Positions 15,327 to 25,462 of a stretch of DNA of 64,000 bases are shown in pieces; positions within the stretch are counted from its first letter, which is position 1; every line of letters begins with the position of its first letter. The notes beneath the pieces were generated by a model. The model saw only the letters and a list, made by a program, of their open reading frames with translations. It was not told where the DNA came from and searched no databases. This DNA is from Halobium salinum. Its GTDB lineage: Archaea > Halobacteriota > Halobacteria > Halobacteriales > Haloferacaceae. Location: positions 1-64,000 of the forward strand of contig NZ_JAODIW010000008.1 of NCBI RefSeq assembly GCF_026586625.1, read 5' to 3'. Both the position numbers and the translations under genes were made by a program.

Positions 15327-15674
15327 TCAGTACTCCTCGTACGCGAGGTTCATCAGCCACTGGGAGAAGGCGTCGCTGTTGGCGTTGACCTCCTCCTCGC
15401 CGATGAACGGGGAGAGCATGTCGCCGGCCATCAGCAGTGCGAAGTCGAGGTCCTTCGCGGTCGGGCTGAGGTAGTAGGTGTTGTGTCCGTCGTACACCGC
15501 CTCCTCGCGGTCGACGAGCCCGAGGTCGTACAGCTTCTCGGCGATTCGACTCCCCTTGCGCGAGGAGACGTCCAGCTCCTTCCAGAAGTCGCTCTGGTGG
15601 ATACCGCCCGATTCGCGGACCAGTTCGAGACCGGCACGCTCGTCCTCGGAGAGTTCAGACTCGGCCGCGCTCAT
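15327..15674 (-). CDS. Winged-helix transcriptional regulator (MarR/ArsR-like)
   Basis: A 115-residue protein with one winged helix-turn-helix: ERAGLELVRESGGIHQSDFW, then KELDVSSRKGSRIAEKLYDL as the recognition helix region (about residues 28-52), and a wing (VDREEAVYDGHNTYYL). The C-terminal 45 residues are helical with a hydrophobic stretch (FALLMAGDMLSPFIG), possibly for dimerization. Haloarchaeal homologues are annotated as helix-turn-helix regulators of unknown target. It converges with psmA and stands alone; 87 bp separate it from the NRDE gene upstream on the same strand. No ligand-binding residues can be named. Confidence 0.8.
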   Translation of the reverse strand: MSAAESELSEDERAGLELVRESGGIHQSDFWKELDVSSRKGSRIAEKLYDLGLVDREEAVYDGHNTYYLSPTAKDLDFALLMAGDMLSPFIGEEEVNANSDAFSQWLMNLAYEEY

Positions 15675-17052: not shown

Positions 17053-18069
17053 TCACTCCGTCGCCGGGAACAGCGCCGCCACGTCCGGTTCCGCCTCGAC
17101 CAGCGCGTACCGGTGGCCGCCGCTCTCGGCTCCCCCTTCGTCACACTCGACGACGCCCGCCGACGCGAGGTGGTCGAGGTGCGCGAACGCCTCCCCCGGC
17201 CCGTGGAGGATGTGGATGTCCGAGAGGTCGCCGAACAGGTGGGCACTGACGGTCCACGCGTCACAGGGGCCGTGTTCGTCGAGGACGGAGACCACGCGCT
17301 CGGTGCGCTCGCGGTGGTGAGCGAGAATCTCCCGGGCGCGACCCGCCGGGTCGTCGATGGGGTCGCGGTGGCCCGGCCACGCGCGGGCCCAGTCGCGTTC
17401 GACGACCTCGACGAGGCTCTCGGCGTAGGTCGCGAGCGGGTCCTCGACGCGCACGTCCGCGCCGCCGACGTTGGGCGTGTACTTCGGGAGGATGGCGTCG
17501 CCGACGAAGGCGTGTCGGCCGGGGGCGTCCGAGTCCAACGTCTCCCCGGCGGTCTCGAAGGCCGACAGGCCGGCGGCGTGGCCGGGGAGGTGGACGACTT
17601 CGAACGACCGTTCGCCGAGGTCGAGGACGTCGCCGCCGTCGAACGGCGTCACCTCGCAGGGCGTCCCCCGGATGTCCTCGTGGGTGTCGAAGAAGTCGAG
17701 GAGCTCCTCGCGTGGCCCGTGCGGGAGCCCCCACTCGTCGAGTCGGCGGCGGGTGCGCGCGGCCTCGTCGGCGACCGCCGCTTCGTCGCCGGCGACGAGC
17801 GGCGCGTCCGCGGCGTGGGCTCGGACGGTGGCGCCGCTCTCGGCCTGAATCTCGCCGGCGAGGCCGGTGTGGTCGTAGTGCCAGTGCGTGACCAACACCT
17901 CGTCGACGTCCTCGACCGCGAGCCCGGCCTCGGCGAGCCCCGCTCGCAGGGCGTCGCGGCCGGCGTCGGTGGCGATGCCGGCGTCGACGAGGACGGTCGG
18001 CTCGCCGGGGAGGAGATACACGTCGTTGCGCCCCTCGAACGCGCGGTTCGCGAGCTGAATTCGCTTCAC
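17053..18069 (-). CDS. Metallo-beta-lactamase-fold hydrolase with C-terminal winged helix
   Basis: A 338-residue MBL-fold enzyme. The metal site motif is THWHYDH (H62, H64, D66, H67), followed by a third His in VHLPGHAAG, a bridging Asp in AFVGDAI and a late His in AWPGHRDP. Residues about 250-325 form a winged-helix-like domain (AHHRERTERVVSVLDEHG and onward) as in LACTB2-like hydrolases. Substrate unknown; thioesters or lactones are possible. It is encoded on the same strand as gvpO and gvpA, 121 bp beyond gvpO, but nothing ties it to gas vesicles. The ATG at 18069 gives the normal family N-terminus. Confidence 0.88.
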   Translation of the reverse strand: MKRIQLANRAFEGRNDVYLLPGEPTVLVDAGIATDAGRDALRAGLAEAGLAVEDVDEVLVTHWHYDHTGLAGEIQAESGATVRAHAADAPLVAGDEAAVADEAARTRRRLDEWGLPHGPREELLDFFDTHEDIRGTPCEVTPFDGGDVLDLGERSFEVVHLPGHAAGLSAFETAGETLDSDAPGRHAFVGDAILPKYTPNVGGADVRVEDPLATYAESLVEVVERDWARAWPGHRDPIDDPAGRAREILAHHRERTERVVSVLDEHGPCDAWTVSAHLFGDLSDIHILHGPGEAFAHLDHLASAGVVECDEGGAESGGHRYALVEAEPDVAALFPATE

Positions 18070-18190: not shown

Positions 18191-18844
18191 CTACACTTCG
18201 TCGACGTCCGAGTCGGCGCGCCGGTAGCGCCCGACGCGGCGGTAACCGGTCACCCGGGCGGACTCGTCGAGGTCGAGTTCGTACCGCCCGAGGATGTCCT
18301 GCGTGTCGGGTACGGAGTGGCGCTCGACCACCTCGACGACGGTGATCCACCCCTCGCCGTCGCTGGTCACCTGGATGACCCCGTCGAGGTCGTGGCCGAT
18401 GAGTTCGGCGGCGGTCGCGCGTGCCGCGTCCCGCACTTCGACGATGCTCGCGACGGCGTCGCTCCCGTCGCCGTCGTCGCTGCCGGCGTTCGAGCCGCCG
18501 GCGTCGTCGGCCGTAGTACCCGAATCGGCGTCGGCCCCGTCTTCGTGGGTCTCGTCTTCGTCGTCTTCGCCCGCGTCGTCTTCGTCGCCACCGGCATCGC
18601 CGTCGTCTCCGTCCTCCTCGGCGCCGTCGCTGTCGTCACCGTCCGGGTGGTCGCCTTCGGTCGCCTCCTTCACGGCGGACAGCACCTGCGAGGCGTGGGA
18701 GGCGCCGATACCCTCCACGTCGAAGAGGGCCGAGCGCTCGACCCCTCGGAGGTCGCCGAGGGTCTCGTAGCCGCCCTTCCGGAGCTTCTCCGCCGTGGAT
18801 TGGTCGATGCCGTCTACGTCGCCGACGTCGGTGTCGTCGTCCAT
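18191..18844 (-). CDS. gvpO: Gas vesicle protein GvpO with N-terminal helix-hairpin-helix domain
   Basis: A 217-residue protein, much longer than the GvpO of Halobacterium (about 120). Residues about 130-212 are the GvpO domain (AELIGHDLDGVIQVTSDGEG, then WITVVEVVERHSVPDTQDIL and GYRRVGRYRR). Residues about 8-62 are a helix-hairpin-helix domain (VDGIDQSTAEKLRKGGYETL, then VEGIGASHASQVL). The two are joined by a roughly 65-residue Asp/Glu/Gly linker. GvpO is reported as essential for gas vesicle formation, but its exact job is unclear. The gene follows gvpA by 33 bp and is probably cotranscribed. The fused HhH domain could bind DNA or protein and is the odd part. Confidence 0.88.
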   Translation of the reverse strand: MDDDTDVGDVDGIDQSTAEKLRKGGYETLGDLRGVERSALFDVEGIGASHASQVLSAVKEATEGDHPDGDDSDGAEEDGDDGDAGGDEDDAGEDDEDETHEDGADADSGTTADDAGGSNAGSDDGDGSDAVASIVEVRDAARATAAELIGHDLDGVIQVTSDGEGWITVVEVVERHSVPDTQDILGRYELDLDESARVTGYRRVGRYRRADSDVDEV

Positions 18845-18877: not shown

Positions 18878-19186
18878 TTACTCCGAGGCGATGCCCATCT
18901 GGGCACGCTCGACGTCCTGACTGTGCTCGCGGGCGGCGGTCGTCTCGATCTCCAGGTCGCTGAGTTCGTCCATGTCTCCGGTCTGGGAGGCTTGCTCTAT
19001 CTTCGATATTTCGGAGGCGTAGGTGAGGAACGTGTCGACGGAGGCGACGACGACCCGAGCCTCGACGGTGAGAATCTCGATGCCCACGACGGAGACGCGG
19101 GCCCAGACGTCGATGACGACGCCCTTGTCGAGGATGCGGTCGAGGACCTCCGCGAGACTGGCACTGCCGGGGGTTTGTGTTGCCAT
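18878..19186 (-). CDS. gvpA: Major gas vesicle structural protein GvpA
   Basis: A 102-residue GvpA, the hydrophobic protein that forms the ribs of the vesicle wall. The core is the classic pattern [20 protein letters not shown], then [20 protein letters not shown] and [12 protein letters not shown] (residues 10-65). The usual haloarchaeal GvpA is about 76 residues; here a roughly 35-residue acidic tail rich in Glu and Asp follows. The tail would lie on the outer face where GvpC normally binds, and no gvpC is present. The gene is divergent from gvpF and precedes gvpO. A TATA-like element 20-30 bp upstream of the ATG suggests a leaderless or short-leader message. Confidence 0.93.
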
Positions 19187-19315
19187 GCGGACAACGACTC
19201 TCTCCCCACTAATAGTCGCTGTGGCTGTATCTACCGAGACCCCCGGTTACGTCCGCCAGTTTTCGTCTCCGTGGCCACAACGGTTAGGCGGCCGCGACGA
19301 GTAGACGGTCGCATT
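19187..19315. promoter_or_regulatory. Divergent promoter region between gvpA and gvpF
   Basis: A 129-bp spacer between divergent gas vesicle operons. On the minus strand GACTATTAGT (19208-19217) lies about 22-31 bases before the gvpA ATG, fitting a TATA element with leaderless transcription. On the plus strand only a weak GGTTAGGC (about 19281-19288) precedes gvpF. In Halobacterium the equivalent region is controlled by GvpE and GvpD; neither is encoded here, and no clear GvpE box was seen. Confidence 0.45.
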
Positions 19316-19942
19316 ATGAGTGGGAACCACCTCTACGTCTACGGCGTCGTCGAGGCCGAGGACCTCGAACTCGACGTCGAGGGCGTCGAGGGCGCGTCAC
19401 CGGTTCGGACGGTCGACCACCGGACCCTCTCGGCCGTCGTCACCGACATCGACGACATGGAGCCCGAACGCACCGACGAGAACGCCCAGGCGCACGACCG
19501 GGTGCTCCGGGCCGTCCTCGACCACGAGGGCGGGCGGACGGTGGTGCCGATGCAGTTCGGGATGACGTTCAAGGGCGCCCGGGAGCTGAAGAACGTCCTC
19601 CGGAGCGGTCGCCGGGCGTTCACCAAGGCGCTCCGGGACGTGGACGGCGGCGTCGAGCGCGGTGTGAAGCTCGTCGCCGACGAGGGGGTCGACCTCGACC
19701 CCGAGCGCGTCGAGGCGGAGGTCGCCGAGTGGCTCGACGGCCTCGCCGTCGAGTCGGTCGCGAACGACCGCTACAGCGACCGACTCGTGCTCAACCGGTC
19801 GTACCTCGTCCTCCGGGAGGAGACCGAGGCGTTCGAGACGGCCGTCGACGACCTCGAAGACGTCTACGACGGCGTCACGGTGAAACAGAGCGGCCCGTTC
19901 GCGCCGTACAGCTTCGTCGACATCCGAATCGGGGCCCAGTGA
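19316..19942 (+). CDS. gvpF: Gas vesicle protein GvpF
   Basis: A 208-residue GvpF/GvpL-family protein. The start HLYVYGVVEAEDLEL and the ends VVPMQFGMTFKG and SGPFAPYSFVDIRIG are diagnostic. GvpF is a minor component that binds GvpA and is thought to act in early assembly together with G, J, K, L and M. The ATG at 19316 opens the plus-strand gvp operon; the long open frame upstream is antisense to gvpO/gvpA and is ignored. The stop shares a base with the ATG of gvpG. The second family member, GvpL, is encoded at 22840. Confidence 0.94.
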   Translation: MSGNHLYVYGVVEAEDLELDVEGVEGASPVRTVDHRTLSAVVTDIDDMEPERTDENAQAHDRVLRAVLDHEGGRTVVPMQFGMTFKGARELKNVLRSGRRAFTKALRDVDGGVERGVKLVADEGVDLDPERVEAEVAEWLDGLAVESVANDRYSDRLVLNRSYLVLREETEAFETAVDDLEDVYDGVTVKQSGPFAPYSFVDIRIGAQ

Positions 19943-20193
19943 TGATTCTCGTCGACGACCTCCTCGTCCGGCCGTTCTTCTCGATTCTGAACATCCTCCA
20001 CTCGATGGCCATCGAGGAGATGTACGACGTGCGGGCCATCTCGAACGAGCTGAAGGAGAACCAACTGCTGTACGAACTCGGCGACCGCGACACCGAGGAG
20101 TACGAGCGCCGCAAGGCCGAACTGGAGGCCGAACTCGAGGTCGCCGAGGCCGCCCACGAACAGCTCAGCGGTCGGGTGGAGGTGCGCCGATGA
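19942..20193 (+). CDS. gvpG: Gas vesicle protein GvpG
   Basis: An 83-residue GvpG, normal length. The N-terminus MILVDDLLVRPFFSILNILH is hydrophobic and amphipathic; the rest is a strongly charged helix (YERRKAELEAELEVAEAAHE) likely to form a coiled coil. GvpG is an assembly factor required for vesicle formation. It starts inside the gvpF stop (TGATG arrangement) and overlaps gvpH by 4 bp, so translation is coupled. Confidence 0.93.
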   Translation: MILVDDLLVRPFFSILNILHSMAIEEMYDVRAISNELKENQLLYELGDRDTEEYERRKAELEAELEVAEAAHEQLSGRVEVRR

Positions 20194-20831
20194 CGCCCGG
20201 TCGGGGGCGGGATAACGACGCGAACGGCCCCGGCGGCGACGACCGCGACGACGGTCGGGAGGACGAACCGCGGGGGTTGTTCGGTGCGCTCCGGCGACTC
20301 GCCGACACGTTGGTCGACCTCGACGCCGGCGCTCGTACCGGGACCGGTTCCGGCGGTCCCGGCACTCCCGGTAGCCGGGGGCGACCGGAGGGCCCGAACC
20401 GGGTCGTCGGCGGCGACGACACCGGCCGGTTCGAGTACCGATTCGGCGTGTCGACGCTCGACGACCTGCTGGCCGCGAGCGAGGCGGAGGAGGCGGAGGA
20501 GGCGGACGGGGCGAGCCGTTACGGTCGAATCGACCCGCCGACGAGCGTCCACGAGGGGCCGGAGGGGGTCGTCGTCCACGTCGACCTGCCGGAGGTCGAG
20601 GGCGACACGGTCGCCGCCGGCGTCGACGGCGGGACGCTCTACGTCGGCGTCGGTTCGGAGGTGCTGACGCGCGTCCAACTCCCTCGTGAGGGCCTGGAGG
20701 TCCAGCACGGCACGTACAACAACGGCGTCCTCGAGTTCTTCCTCCGCGACGGCGGAAGCGAGGACGGCGAGCGCGACGACGAGGACGCGGGCGACGGTGC
20801 GAGCGGCGAACGGGAGACAGGAGACGCATGA
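20190..20831 (+). CDS. gvpH: Gas vesicle protein GvpH, Hsp20-like
   Basis: A 213-residue GvpH. An acidic disordered N-terminal half is followed by a short alpha-crystallin/Hsp20-type domain (about residues 115-190: TSVHEGPEGVVVHVDLPEVE, then DGGTLYVGVG and NGVLEFFLRDGG). In Halobacterium GvpH is not essential and interacts with GvpI; a chaperone role toward the hydrophobic Gvp proteins is proposed. The order FGH followed by an I-position gene matches other haloarchaeal clusters. Both ends overlap the neighbours by 4 bp. Confidence 0.87.
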   Translation: MTPGRGRDNDANGPGGDDRDDGREDEPRGLFGALRRLADTLVDLDAGARTGTGSGGPGTPGSRGRPEGPNRVVGGDDTGRFEYRFGVSTLDDLLAASEAEEAEEADGASRYGRIDPPTSVHEGPEGVVVHVDLPEVEGDTVAAGVDGGTLYVGVGSEVLTRVQLPREGLEVQHGTYNNGVLEFFLRDGGSEDGERDDEDAGDGASGERETGDA

Positions 20832-21943
20832 CCGACGAAGACACCACAGAGTCCACGGAAGAACCGAACGACCCCGAGTCGAACCGGGACGAAGGTGAGG
20901 ACGGGAACGGGGCCGAAAGCGAGAACGGGGCCGAGCACGCGCCCGACACCGACGAGGCACCGGATGCCGACGAAGTCGTCGAGGACGCGGCCGAGGTGGC
21001 CGAAGACGCCGCCGACGCCGCGGTCGCGGAGGCGGCCGAGGCCGCGAAGGGAGCCGCGGAAGTCACCGAGGCGGTCCCGGTCGGGCGAATCCAAGAGCTC
21101 GCGGAGACCGCCGAGGAGCGCCTCGACGCGTTCGTCGAGGCGGAGAAGCAGGGGGAGGCCGACAAGGGGCTCCTGGAGGAGCTCTGGGACGTCGCCGAGG
21201 AGGCGGAGGCGCTGCTCGCGACGGTCGAGGAGTCCGCCGTCCACGAGGTCGTCGACGAGGACGCCGGGATGGAGGAGTTCGGGGAGTACGTCGAGGCCAA
21301 CAAGGAGATGGCTGGCCTCCCCAGCACCGTCGACGAGGCCGAACACGAGGTTGCCGTCGCGTACCGCGAACTGCTCGACCTCGTGGAGCTGAGCGAGGTG
21401 TGGGACGCGGTCGACATCCGCGAGTTCCTGCGCAACAAGCGCGACCTCGACGAGGAGTTGGACGACGTGACCGACTACTTCGGGGGCGACGGCTGGGTGG
21501 GAGACGACGACGGCGGCTGGGTAGGTGACGACGACGAAGGGGTCTTCGAGACCGACGACGACACGCGGGTCGACCCGCAACTCGACCCGGACCTGGGCGA
21601 ACTCGGCGGGAGCGAGGGCCAGCAGGCGGCCATTCAGGCGAAGGTGAACGACGCCGTCGAGGAGTTCAGGGGGAGCATCCTCGACGCCCACGAACGCCTG
21701 AAGGAGGTAGTCGAGAAGAACCGCGAGCGCACCCGACAGGCCGGCCAGCCGGACTCGCGCAACCCGACGGCGGTGTCGACGATGCCGCCGAGCGCGAGCC
21801 GGACCGACCTCAAGGGCGGCACCCGCCACTCGACGGTGCCCTCGGAGACGCTGCACTCCTCGGCACCGAACCACGGACGCATCTACGGGAGCCGGTTCGA
21901 CCGCGCCCGGAAACGCCGGGACGAGGAGGACGACGATGAGTAA
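20828..21943 (+). CDS. Gas vesicle cluster protein in the gvpI position
   Basis: A 371-residue protein between gvpH and gvpJ, where other haloarchaea encode the small basic GvpI. It has an acidic N-terminal region (1-85, Ala/Glu-rich), a helical middle part (about 85-230), a doubled GWVGDDD motif (about 220-236), and a basic Ser/Arg-rich tail (310-371, with STMPPSASRTDLKGG and then RIYGSRFDRARKRR). The basic tail may be the GvpI equivalent; the first 300 residues are extra. No enzyme motif is seen. It overlaps gvpH by 4 bp and gvpJ by 8 bp, so it belongs to the operon. The GvpI relation is inference from position and tail charge; a new assembly or shell protein is possible. Confidence 0.6.
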   Translation: MTDEDTTESTEEPNDPESNRDEGEDGNGAESENGAEHAPDTDEAPDADEVVEDAAEVAEDAADAAVAEAAEAAKGAAEVTEAVPVGRIQELAETAEERLDAFVEAEKQGEADKGLLEELWDVAEEAEALLATVEESAVHEVVDEDAGMEEFGEYVEANKEMAGLPSTVDEAEHEVAVAYRELLDLVELSEVWDAVDIREFLRNKRDLDEELDDVTDYFGGDGWVGDDDGGWVGDDDEGVFETDDDTRVDPQLDPDLGELGGSEGQQAAIQAKVNDAVEEFRGSILDAHERLKEVVEKNRERTRQAGQPDSRNPTAVSTMPPSASRTDLKGGTRHSTVPSETLHSSAPNHGRIYGSRFDRARKRRDEEDDDE

Positions 21944-22532
21944 CCCCGGCCCAACCCGACAGCAGGACAGCCTGAAAGACGTCGTCGAGATGCTGCTCGA
22001 CAAGGGCGTCGTCATCAACGCCGACATCGCCGTCTCGGTCGGCGAAACGGAACTCATCGGCATCCGGCTCCGGGCCGCCCTCGCCTCCTTCGAGACCGCC
22101 GCGAAGTACGGACTGGAGTTCCCGAGCGGCACCGACATGCAGCGCGTCCAGGAGGCGTCGGGCGCCGACGGGGTGATTCGCGGGACGGCCGACGCCGCGA
22201 ACGAGGTGGTCGGCGGGACGGCCGACGGGGAAGACGGAGACGCGGGCGACCGGGGCGAGAGACGGCTTCGCGGCCGCCCCACGGAGCCGGGACTCGCCTC
22301 GCGAATCGCCGTCGAGGACCCGAGCACCGACCCGGCCGAGGGGGCCGTCGAGGAGTCGGGTGAGGAAGATAGCGAGTCGACCGAGGTCGAAGCGACCGTC
22401 GAAACCAGCAGCGGCGAGGGCGAGTCGAGCGACGACGCTGTCGACGCCGCGAACGAGGGGACCGACGACACCGACGGTGACGACGGCACCGAGACGAGAG
22501 ACGACGACGGCGAGGGGGACGAGCCGACGTGA
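21936..22532 (+). CDS. gvpJ: Gas vesicle protein GvpJ with long acidic tail
   Basis: A 198-residue GvpA-like minor shell protein. Residues 10-75 carry the GvpA/J/M core (LKDVVEMLLDKGVVINADIA, then VSVGETELIGIRLRAALAS and TAAKYGLEFPSGTDM). GvpJ of Halobacterium is about 114 residues; here a roughly 115-residue extension of Glu, Asp, Ser and Thr follows with no recognisable domain. GvpJ is required for vesicle formation and probably sits at the conical tips or in the nucleating complex. It overlaps its upstream neighbour by 8 bp and gvpK by 4 bp. Confidence 0.92.
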   Translation: MSNPGPTRQQDSLKDVVEMLLDKGVVINADIAVSVGETELIGIRLRAALASFETAAKYGLEFPSGTDMQRVQEASGADGVIRGTADAANEVVGGTADGEDGDAGDRGERRLRGRPTEPGLASRIAVEDPSTDPAEGAVEESGEEDSESTEVEATVETSSGEGESSDDAVDAANEGTDDTDGDDGTETRDDDGEGDEPT

Positions 22533-22843
22533 CGACCATCGACATCGACGGTGACGACGCGGCCGACGGCCTGCTGACGCTCGTCCTCGCGGTGGTCGAC
22601 CTCCTCGTCGACGCCCTCGAACGCGAGGCGTTACGCCGGATGGAGTCCGGTCGACTCGAGGACGACGAAATCGAGCGCCTCGGCACCCAGCTCGCGAATC
22701 TCGAAGCCGAAATCGAGGGGCTGAAAGCCGAGCGAGGTATCGAAGACGAGGTGGCGCGCCTCCGCTCCGACCTCGACGGCCTGGTGAGCGATACGATGCG
22801 GGCCGCCGGCGGCGAGGCCGTCTTCGAGGAGGTGACGCGATGA
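22529..22843 (+). CDS. gvpK: Gas vesicle protein GvpK
   Basis: A 104-residue GvpK, the normal haloarchaeal length. The hydrophobic N-terminal helix (GLLTLVLAVVDLLVDALERE) is followed by RRMESGRLEDDEIERLGTQL and a charged coiled coil. GvpK is one of the eight genes needed for gas vesicles in Halobacterium. Translation starts at GTG within the gvpJ stop (GTGA) and ends with a 4-bp overlap with gvpL. Confidence 0.92.
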   Translation: MTTIDIDGDDAADGLLTLVLAVVDLLVDALEREALRRMESGRLEDDEIERLGTQLANLEAEIEGLKAERGIEDEVARLRSDLDGLVSDTMRAAGGEAVFEEVTR

Positions 22844-23799
22844 GCGAGCGCGGCGGGACCACGGCCGCGGGCGCCGGCGCCGACGCCGACTTCGAGGAGG
22901 GTCGATACGTCTTCTGTGTCGTCGCCGTCGACGACCCCGACGACGTCGTCTTCTCGACAGCGGGTATCGAGGAGGGCGAGACCGAACTCGTCGTCGCGGA
23001 CGGGGAAGACACCGACACGGTCGCGGCCGTCGTCCAGCCGGTGACTGGGCCGTTCGACTCCTCGGTACCGGCGGAGATACAGCGGTGGCTCCTCGACCAC
23101 CAGCGTGTCGTCGACGAGGCCGGCGAGCGCTTCGGGACGCCGCTTCCGTTCCGCTTCGATACCGTCGTCCGAGGTGACGACGACGCGGTCCGAGCGTGGC
23201 TCAGCGAGGAGCGACCGCGACTCGTCGAGGCGCTCGACCGCTTCGACGGTCGCTGGGAGTACCGCGTCGAGGTCGTCTACGACCGGGAGGACGCCCGCGA
23301 AGAGGTCGCCGCGGCGGACGACGAACTCGCCGAGCTACAAGCGGAAATCGACGCCGCGGACGAGGGGACGGCGTTCCTCCTCGAGAAGAAGTACGAGCGG
23401 CGACTGGAGTCGCTGCTCGGGGAGCGCGAGGCCGAGCGCGCGGCCGGCCTCGCGGCACGGCTCGAACCGCTCGTCGACGGGTTCGGCGACCTCGGCGACC
23501 GCCCTTCGCTCGGGCTCGACGTCGGCGACGCGGACGACGAGTCGGAGACGCTCGCGCGCTTCGCACTCCTCGCAGACGACGATGGGACCGAGGCCGTCGG
23601 CGACGAGCTCGACGCGGTCGCCGCCGACCCCGGCGTCGAGGTCCGATTCACCGGCCCGTGGCCGCCGTACAGCTTCGCGCCGTCCTTCGGCGAGGTCGGC
23701 GACCGCGGCGAGGGGCGCGGAGACGGTGACGGCGGCTCCGCTCCCGGAGCCGACTCCGGGGCCGAAGCCGACGGTCCGGACTCCGACCCGACGCCATGA
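22840..23799 (+). CDS. gvpL: Gas vesicle protein GvpL
   Basis: A 319-residue GvpF/L-family protein. Core motifs are RYVFCVVAVDDPDD near the start, FGTPLPFRFDTVV, the long coiled coil VAAADDELAELQAEIDAA, and the closing FTGPWPPYSFAPSF. GvpL is reported to bind many other Gvp proteins and may act as the assembly hub. Compared with GvpF at 19316 it has a longer middle helix and a glycine/aspartate-rich tail of about 35 residues. Overlaps of 4 bp on both sides keep it in the operon. Confidence 0.93.
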   Translation: MSERGGTTAAGAGADADFEEGRYVFCVVAVDDPDDVVFSTAGIEEGETELVVADGEDTDTVAAVVQPVTGPFDSSVPAEIQRWLLDHQRVVDEAGERFGTPLPFRFDTVVRGDDDAVRAWLSEERPRLVEALDRFDGRWEYRVEVVYDREDAREEVAAADDELAELQAEIDAADEGTAFLLEKKYERRLESLLGEREAERAAGLAARLEPLVDGFGDLGDRPSLGLDVGDADDESETLARFALLADDDGTEAVGDELDAVAADPGVEVRFTGPWPPYSFAPSFGEVGDRGEGRGDGDGGSAPGADSGAEADGPDSDPTP

Positions 23800-24095
23800 G
23801 ACCGACGCGCGAGCAGGAGGACGCGCTCGTCGACCTCGTCGACGTCATCCTAGAGGAGGGCGTCGTCCTCCAGGCGGACGTGATTATCAGCGTCGCGGAG
23901 GTGCCCCTCGTCGGGCTGAAGCTCCGCGCGGCGCTGGCCGGGATGGCGACGATGACCGAGTACGGCCTGTTCGAGGAGTGGGACGAACGAATCCGTGGGG
24001 AGGCCTCGAACGACCGACGGGAGGCGACGCTCGGCCACGAGCGCTCGCCCGGCGTCGGCCACCGCCCGACGCCGCGAACGGGCAACGACGGGTAG
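23796..24095 (+). CDS. gvpM: Gas vesicle protein GvpM
   Basis: A 99-residue GvpA-like minor shell protein. The core ALVDLVDVILEEGVVLQADV, then IISVAEVPLVGLKLRAALAG and MTEYGLFEEWD, is the GvpM pattern. GvpM is required for vesicle formation. It ends the plus-strand gvp operon; no further gvp gene follows, and 245 bp separate it from the J-domain gene. In Halobacterium gvpM likewise ends the DEFGHIJKLM transcript. Confidence 0.93.
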   Translation: MRPTREQEDALVDLVDVILEEGVVLQADVIISVAEVPLVGLKLRAALAGMATMTEYGLFEEWDERIRGEASNDRREATLGHERSPGVGHRPTPRTGNDG

Positions 24096-24340: not shown

Positions 24341-25462
24341 ATGCACGAGGATTTCTACGAACTGCTCGGAGTCGAATCCGAGGCGACGCGGGACGAGCTC
24401 AAGCGGGCCTACCGGGAGGCCGCCCGCGAGTACCATCCGGACGTCAACGACGACGACCGAGCGGGCGCGCAGTTCAAAGCCGTCCGCCGCGCCTACGACG
24501 TCCTGCGGGACGAGGACGAACGCGCCGATTACGACGAGATGGGCCACGAGACGTACGTGAGAAAACGTCTCGGGGGGCTCCCGTCGACCTCGCCGAAACG
24601 GTCGGGTGGGAGCGACGGGGGTCGGTCGGGCACCGCATCACGGTCCACCTCCCGGTCGTCCCGCGACTCCCGCGACGGCGCGCGGGGTGCGACAGCGGGC
24701 TCGGCGTCGGACACGTCGAGCACGTCGAGCGCGTCCGCAGGCTCGTCGAATTCCTCGGCCTCGAACTCGTCGACGAGGTCGGAGACGGACGGTCGTTCCC
24801 ACCCCAGTCGGGAGGAGCGAGCCCGGCATCGTGCCCGGCGGAGCACGACGGCGGGCCGGGCCGGCGGGAGCGAGCGGGTCGGCCGGTCGTCGGATACGGC
24901 TCGGGGGGGATCGACGCGGCGTGCGTACGAACACCGGACCGACCAGGTGGAAGAAGCGACCACAGCGACCCCCGACCGGACCGCGGCGCTCCGGGTACGC
25001 TGGCTCGCGGTGCTGGCCGGAACGCTGGCCTATCTGGCCGGCGTCGCTCGCTACGTACTGTCGAGCGCCGACGCGCTGGCCGCGTACGTACGGGGTGTCG
25101 CCACCACACCGGCGGTCGCCTCGCTGACGGCCGACGCCGGCCTAACGGGTTCCGTGGCGTTCGTCCGTGAAGCGGTCGCCACCCCCTCCGCCGACCTGCT
25201 GTTCCCGGTCGGCGTCGTCGCGTTGCCCCTGGTTCTCGCGCTCACGGTCGCCCAGTACGGCCGCGGGAAGGCGTGGCTCTACGTGGTCGCCGCACTCGCC
25301 CCGGTGGCGCTCCCGGCCGCCGCGGGAGCGCCGACGGCGACGACCCTGTCGGCGGTCGTCCTGCTCGCGCTCCCCGTCGTCGCCGCGGGCGTCTTCCTGG
25401 GCGACGTCGGACGGTACCTCCTCGCCGCAGGTCGCACGGACGGGGCCACCGACCGCCGGTAA
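24341..25462 (+). CDS. J-domain membrane protein (DnaJ-like)
   Basis: A 373-residue protein with an N-terminal J domain (residues 3-66: DFYELLGVESEATRDELKRA and the HPD tripeptide in REYHPDVN). It lacks the zinc-finger and substrate-binding domains of DnaJ. A Ser/Arg/Gly-rich linker (about 80-215) follows, then about four membrane helices (for example VRWLAVLAGTLAYLAGVARY, LLFPVGVVALPLVLALTVAQ and LYVVAALAPVALPAAAGA). It could recruit Hsp70 (DnaK) to the membrane. It lies downstream of the gvp operon but is common in haloarchaea without gas vesicles, so I do not link it to them. Confidence 0.85.
   Translation: MHEDFYELLGVESEATRDELKRAYREAAREYHPDVNDDDRAGAQFKAVRRAYDVLRDEDERADYDEMGHETYVRKRLGGLPSTSPKRSGGSDGGRSGTASRSTSRSSRDSRDGARGATAGSASDTSSTSSASAGSSNSSASNSSTRSETDGRSHPSREERARHRARRSTTAGRAGGSERVGRSSDTARGGSTRRAYEHRTDQVEEATTATPDRTAALRVRWLAVLAGTLAYLAGVARYVLSSADALAAYVRGVATTPAVASLTADAGLTGSVAFVREAVATPSADLLFPVGVVALPLVLALTVAQYGRGKAWLYVVAALAPVALPAAAGAPTATTLSAVVLLALPVVAAGVFLGDVGRYLLAAGRTDGATDRR

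Follow-up and report, generated by a model that had tools for sequence, protein, structure and literature searches.

The gvp cluster of Halobium salinum

The window, a stretch of 64,000 nucleotides from the genome of the haloarchaeon Halobium salinum, contains a gas-vesicle (gvp) cluster in which a gvpO-gvpA pair is divergent from gvpF-gvpM. Its genes and features are as follows.

18191..18844, (-): gvpO, an HhH-linker-GvpO fusion of 217 aa (ORF and Pfam)
18206..18460, (-): GvpO core, residues 129-213 (PF05800, invariant columns, AlphaFold2)
18461..18652, (-): acidic linker, residues 65-128 (composition and AlphaFold2 disorder prediction)
18659..18823, (-): helix-hairpin-helix (HhH) domain, residues 8-62 (HHH_5, AlphaFold2, alignment)
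18878..19186, (-): gvpA (NF046092, 132 bits; PF00741)
19187..19315, no strand: divergent gvpA/gvpF intergenic region, whose only inverted repeat is weak and has widely spaced arms
19316..19942, (+): gvpF (PF06386)
19942..20193, (+): gvpG (tblastn against syntenic clusters)
20190..20831, (+): gvpH (PF05455)
20828..21943, (+): gvpI, 371 aa (position and similarity; no Pfam match)
21936..22532, (+): gvpJ (NF046090, 139.7 bits)
22529..22843, (+): gvpK (PF05121)
22840..23799, (+): gvpL (NF045778, 311 bits)
23796..24095, (+): gvpM (NF046091, 128 bits)

The gvpA gene lies on the strand of gvpO, 33 bp upstream of it, and the gene order of the window has neither gvpC nor gvpN between the two. The Halobium salinum genome holds a single GvpO copy and no GvpN over cut-off, and one halobacterial GvpC query found no match in it. 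The genes examined around the cluster include no recognisable gvpD or gvpE. The region between gvpA and gvpF (19187-19315) has no compact palindrome or recognisable operator; all that it contains is an imperfect pair of 9-nt arms separated by 48 nt. The GvpO of H. salinarum (PF05800, 13.2 kDa) belongs to the same core family, shares the invariant residues and has the same neighbours, gvpA and gvpFGHIJKLM. However, it has no N-terminal domain and is part of gvpACNO, whereas the cluster in the window lacks gvpC and gvpN.

Architecture of the GvpO fusion

The initial annotation described the reading frame at 18191-18844 as a GvpO fused to an HhH domain, and its coordinates, strand and length are correct. 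Both domains score over their Pfam cut-offs: GvpO (PF05800) at residues 129-213 with 96.8 bits (cut-off 25), and HHH_5 (PF14520) at residues 8-59, inside the proposed interval of 8-62, with 29.6 bits (cut-off 27). The HHH_5 match of the window copy clears its cut-off by 2.6 bits only; a chance match is ruled out by the higher scores of its homologues (48-63 bits). The linker, originally estimated at roughly 65 residues, comprises 64 (65-128), of which 47% are D or E, with a net charge of -30. The GvpO core consists of one helix and four strands in the AlphaFold2 model and keeps the ten positions that are invariant in a 54-row alignment of the family (W166, E174, R175, P179, T181, Q182, D183, G186, Y188 and R209).

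AlphaFold2 pLDDT reaches block means of about 87-96 in the HhH domain, falls to about 50 in the linker and is mostly 93-97 in the GvpO core. We interpret this profile as two folded units joined by a disordered tether, as the two independent units of the initial annotation imply; the pTM of 0.45 gives no confidence to their relative orientation. The ATG at residue 1 is the first start codon of the ORF, with in-frame stops just upstream. Other in-frame ATG, GTG or TTG codons fall inside the HhH domain, at residues 43, 54 and 58, and the next is at residue 137, within GvpO. The HhH domain is therefore not removable without truncating GvpO, and the true start does not lie after residue 65. This gap in start codons, together with the conservation of the fusion in relatives, rules out a start-codon artefact, and the ORF is confirmed as a genuine GvpO to which an HhH domain is tethered by a disordered acidic stretch.

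The HhH domain

The predicted helices of the domain (residues 15-23, 29-33, 37-41 and 48-63 in the AlphaFold2 model) agree with an (HhH)2 fold. Foldseek matches of the model include the RAD51 N-terminal domain and the C-terminal repeat domain of NusA, the latter ranking first (probability 1.00) at a weak E of 5.6e-3. The NusA C-terminal repeat domain is protein-binding; it has the HhH-type fold in common with the GvpO module and differs in sitting in a transcription elongation factor. In sequence, the HhH profile has matches in topoisomerase V, Y-family polymerases, eL32 and the C-terminal repeat of NusA as well as in the N-terminal domains of RadA/Rad51. The closest PDB sequence is the N-terminal HhH extension of a haloarchaeal eL32 (chain 1jj2_X, profile E 2e-18), which is likewise followed by an acidic linker, but is carried by a ribosomal protein. 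The eL32 of the Halobium salinum genome itself has a tandem pair of HhH domains, again with acidic linkers (L223, 1399-2334, -).

HhH folds are often DNA-binding, and generally bind without sequence specificity. The hairpins of DNA-binding copies read GhG; in the window copy, hairpin 1 reads GID and hairpin 2 GIG, while hairpin 1 of the five relatives reads GIG or GVG in the alignment. In net charge the domain is no more acidic than its counterpart in bona fide haloarchaeal RadA, and charge was consequently dropped as an argument against DNA binding. Among close relatives dN/dS of the HhH domain is about 0.15-0.3 (Nei-Gojobori); these values, well below 1, indicate purifying selection.

N-terminal modules of haloarchaeal GvpO

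A class-wide draw of 392 genomes yielded GvpO in 161, and 162 GvpO genes, including a few from genomes outside this draw, were surveyed for N-terminal modules. A module is present in 135: a zinc finger in 108 (a total obtained by subtraction), a three-helix domain in 21 and an HhH domain in six, leaving 27 with none. The GvpOs inspected have an acidic linker behind the module. The HhH domain is thus one among several alternative GvpO N-terminal modules, a point absent from the initial annotation, whose known GvpO of about 120 residues is the Halobacterium type; most haloarchaeal GvpOs have an N-terminal module of some kind. The module type varies among related GvpOs in a tree of the GvpO core.

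Zinc fingers were identified by their pattern, and in the two tested Pfam assigned DUF5763. GvpOs with this finger, the form found in most gvpC-lacking haloarchaeal clusters, share with the window protein the succession of small module, acidic linker and GvpO core and the absence of gvpC from the cluster; they differ in the finger itself and in the presence of gvpN in most such genomes (77/105). The three-helix domain is conserved, and had no match in Pfam or in a fold search. The same three-helix ("HTIDEL") module also occurs N-terminally on haloarchaeal ETF-alpha, again with an acidic linker behind it (L237, L233, L234, L235), and in some genomes it stands there in tandem. The occurrence of three-helix modules on ETF-alpha and of HhH domains on eL32 indicates that modules of this sort are not confined to enzymes acting on nucleic acids.

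Distribution and origin of the HhH fusion

The spread of the fusion, one of the checks proposed in the initial annotation, covers five further genomes, so that it makes up 6/162 of the haloarchaeal GvpOs examined. Full-length relatives occur in Halogranum rubrum, Halogranum amylolyticum and Halorubrum sp. Hd13 (HHH_5 48-52 bits), and a more divergent form in the A-N-O clusters of two genomes from a different family (G273, G384; 52-63 bits). Within the family of Halobium, 42 of 171 genomes match the window protein at E <= 1e-15, and the HhH version was recognised in four of these matches, namely the window, the two Halogranum species and Halorubrum Hd13; for family members first found in this search, HhH status was judged from query coverage only.

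The GvpO-core tree places HhH-GvpO in three positions, with the core of the window protein beside the zinc-finger GvpO L033 (96/93). Nevertheless, a single HhH clade is not rejected by the AU test, either for four (p 0.42) or for all six (p 0.16) proteins. In view of this and of the long branches involved, the three positions in the best tree do not fix the number of HhH gains. GvpO and HhH are both known families, and in the literature searched no paper mentions GvpO together with helix-hairpin-helix.

GvpO modules and gvpC

The split between GvpO modules and gvpC is the more interesting part of these observations than the HhH fusion itself. A search with a single GvpC query detected GvpC in 14 genomes with GvpO, all of whose GvpOs are module-less. 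Gene order adds a divergent gvpC beside four further module-less GvpOs (L136, L193, L260, L261); the one-query search alone was accordingly rejected as an incomplete record of gvpC presence. Taken together, none of the 18 GvpOs from gvpC-bearing clusters has a module, as against 135 of the other 144. The nine module-less exceptions comprise L111 with a decayed finger, three second copies that each accompany a GvpO with a module, an orphan gene, three genes from the same genus and one further gene. No module was recognised in four gvpC-lacking clusters, L163, L192, L201 and L218. At L111 (G193) the gvp locus is apparently decaying: a stretch that begins like GvpN passes out of frame into the reading frame of gvpO, and the first cysteine of the GvpO zinc finger is lost.

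In every gvpC-lacking locus examined over about 9 kb or more, the orphan gene excepted, gvpA is followed by gvpN or gvpO after no more than 173 bp, which leaves no room for a hidden gvpC. For loci examined over about 3 kb the absence of gvpC rests on the one-query search, which is known to miss divergent GvpC and was confined to genomes of the draw. In the GvpO-core tree the 18 gvpC-associated GvpOs form one branch (98/61), adjoining the HhH pair of G273 and G384. The anticorrelation between module and gvpC thus amounts to about one evolutionary event and may have its cause in shared ancestry. Clusters lacking gvpC are on record, several of them in species described as Vac- (PMC4390858).

Possible function of the HhH module

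The C-terminus of halobacterial GvpC consists of an acidic stretch followed by a CxxC...HxxxH finger; ROS_MUCR scores over cut-off for the finger of the GvpC of L051. In split-GFP experiments a C-terminal GvpC fragment (residues 329-382), globular and with the zinc-finger motif, binds GvpO, GvpN, GvpF, GvpH, GvpI and GvpL (PMC9372576). GvpO binds GvpA as monomer and multimer, and a bridging role has been suggested for it; its requirement for gas vesicles is known for H. salinarum only (PMC9372576). Like the HhH domain of GvpO, the ROS/MUCR-like finger of GvpC is a small domain beyond an acidic stretch, but it differs in its fold, in its C-terminal position and in its location on a shell protein. 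In two divergent GvpCs (L136, 2084-3334, +; L193, 5755-6777, -) a different small C-terminal domain replaces the finger, so this end of GvpC is exchangeable as well. A SAP/HeH-like reading of this domain, made by eye only, had no Pfam or PDB support and was rejected.

Because the acid-tethered module of GvpC binds Gvps, we favour docking by the HhH domain over DNA tethering or promoter regulation. A tethered module on GvpO where GvpC is missing agrees with this, as do the match of the HhH domain to the protein-binding repeat of NusA and the presence of the three-helix module on ETF-alpha. Of the three functions considered in the initial annotation, binding to another Gvp is hence the best supported, by analogy with GvpC (PMC9372576). 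We tentatively propose, at a little short of an even chance, that the HhH domain is a protein-docking module standing in for the C-terminal module of GvpC in gvpC-lacking clusters; both the docking and the replacement are inferred. On this view the GvpO core would handle the assembly factors as well as GvpA; at the growing shell, the tethered HhH domain would recruit a second partner, which might be one of the other Gvps or a further GvpO. The module on GvpO would then do the job performed in gvpC-bearing systems by the acidic stretch and small module of GvpC, and the DUF5763-type zinc finger, the three-helix domain and the HhH domain would be alternative modules in the same role. This notion of a common function is weakened by the lack of visible homology of the GvpO modules to one another and to the GvpC finger. 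Docking is also opposed by the common DNA binding of HhH folds, by the four gvpC-lacking clusters in which no module was recognised, by the anticorrelation with gvpC amounting to about one event, and by reports that several gvpC-lacking species are Vac- (PMC4390858), so that the expression of these clusters is in question.

Alternatively, the modules might be generic appendages, since haloarchaea readily add small acidic modules, in which case they would aid solubility or be near-neutral and the function would lie in the core alone. The presence of like modules on the unrelated proteins eL32 and ETF-alpha, an HhH domain on the former and the three-helix domain on the latter, and the differences in module type among relatives are in line with this, as is the short module-less GvpO of Halobacterium, which is reported to be essential and so works unaided. 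Purifying selection on the HhH domain and the recognised module on 135 of the 144 GvpOs outside gvpC-bearing clusters argue against it, and we regard it as somewhat unlikely. We give slightly less credit to a nucleoid or nucleic-acid tether, in which the HhH domain would bind DNA without sequence preference and the acidic linker would let GvpO keep growing vesicles or their assembly factors near the nucleoid, much as phasins do for PHA granules. Such a tether is suggested by the profile matches to RadA/Rad51, topoisomerase V and Y-family polymerases besides eL32, and by the resemblance of the GvpC finger to the ROS/MUCR type. It is opposed by hairpin 1 of the window copy, which has GID rather than GhG, by the three-helix module shared with ETF-alpha, a metabolic enzyme, by the nearest HhH being the eL32 extension and no DNA enzyme, and by the GvpC finger being a demonstrated Gvp-docking fragment (PMC9372576). 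Net charge, which is the same as in the HhH of haloarchaeal RadA, leaves the domain compatible with a tether and does not discriminate. A broader proposal, that haloarchaeal gas-vesicle systems need an acid-tethered module, be it the GvpC C-terminus or the GvpO N-terminus, for tethering vesicles to a scaffold such as the nucleoid, appears improbable to us. If true, HhH-GvpO would represent a DNA-binding fold fused directly to an assembly factor and would bear on vesicle positioning or partition.

The least likely of the three functions first suggested is that of a transcription factor which binds the divergent gvpA/gvpF promoter and couples assembly to gvp expression. A divergent promoter region is indeed present, and the failure to recognise gvpD or gvpE among the genes examined nearby also speaks for it. 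Yet the absence of a compact palindrome from the intergenic region and the general lack of sequence specificity in HhH domains make a promoter-specific regulator highly improbable.

The modules and their split from gvpC suggest a testable bridging or docking function at the growing shell for GvpO, which is essential for gas vesicles in Halobacterium. The modules possibly compensate for missing GvpC in gvpC-lacking clusters, the majority of the haloarchaeal sample studied here, and could serve as natural fusion points for vesicle engineering.

Neighbouring genes

The length of GvpI varies considerably: it is 371 aa in the window and about 317-331 aa in G273 and G384, whose clusters also encode an HhH-GvpO, as against 113 aa in the Halobacterium-type cluster. 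A gene for a J-domain protein (PF00226) directly follows gvpM (24341-25462, +), and relatives of it adjoin the gvp clusters of Halogranum rubrum, H. amylolyticum and Halegenticoccus soli (L062, L064, L081). Downstream of gvpO lie a metallo-beta-lactamase-fold hydrolase and a MarR-like small protein (17053-18069 and 15327-15674, -), an order that is kept in Halogranum and Halegenticoccus. In gvpC-bearing clusters, ParA/MinD-type ATPase genes adjoin gvpO and gvpM (L227, 11127-11891, +; L224, 13446-14456, -); these could be plasmid partition genes.
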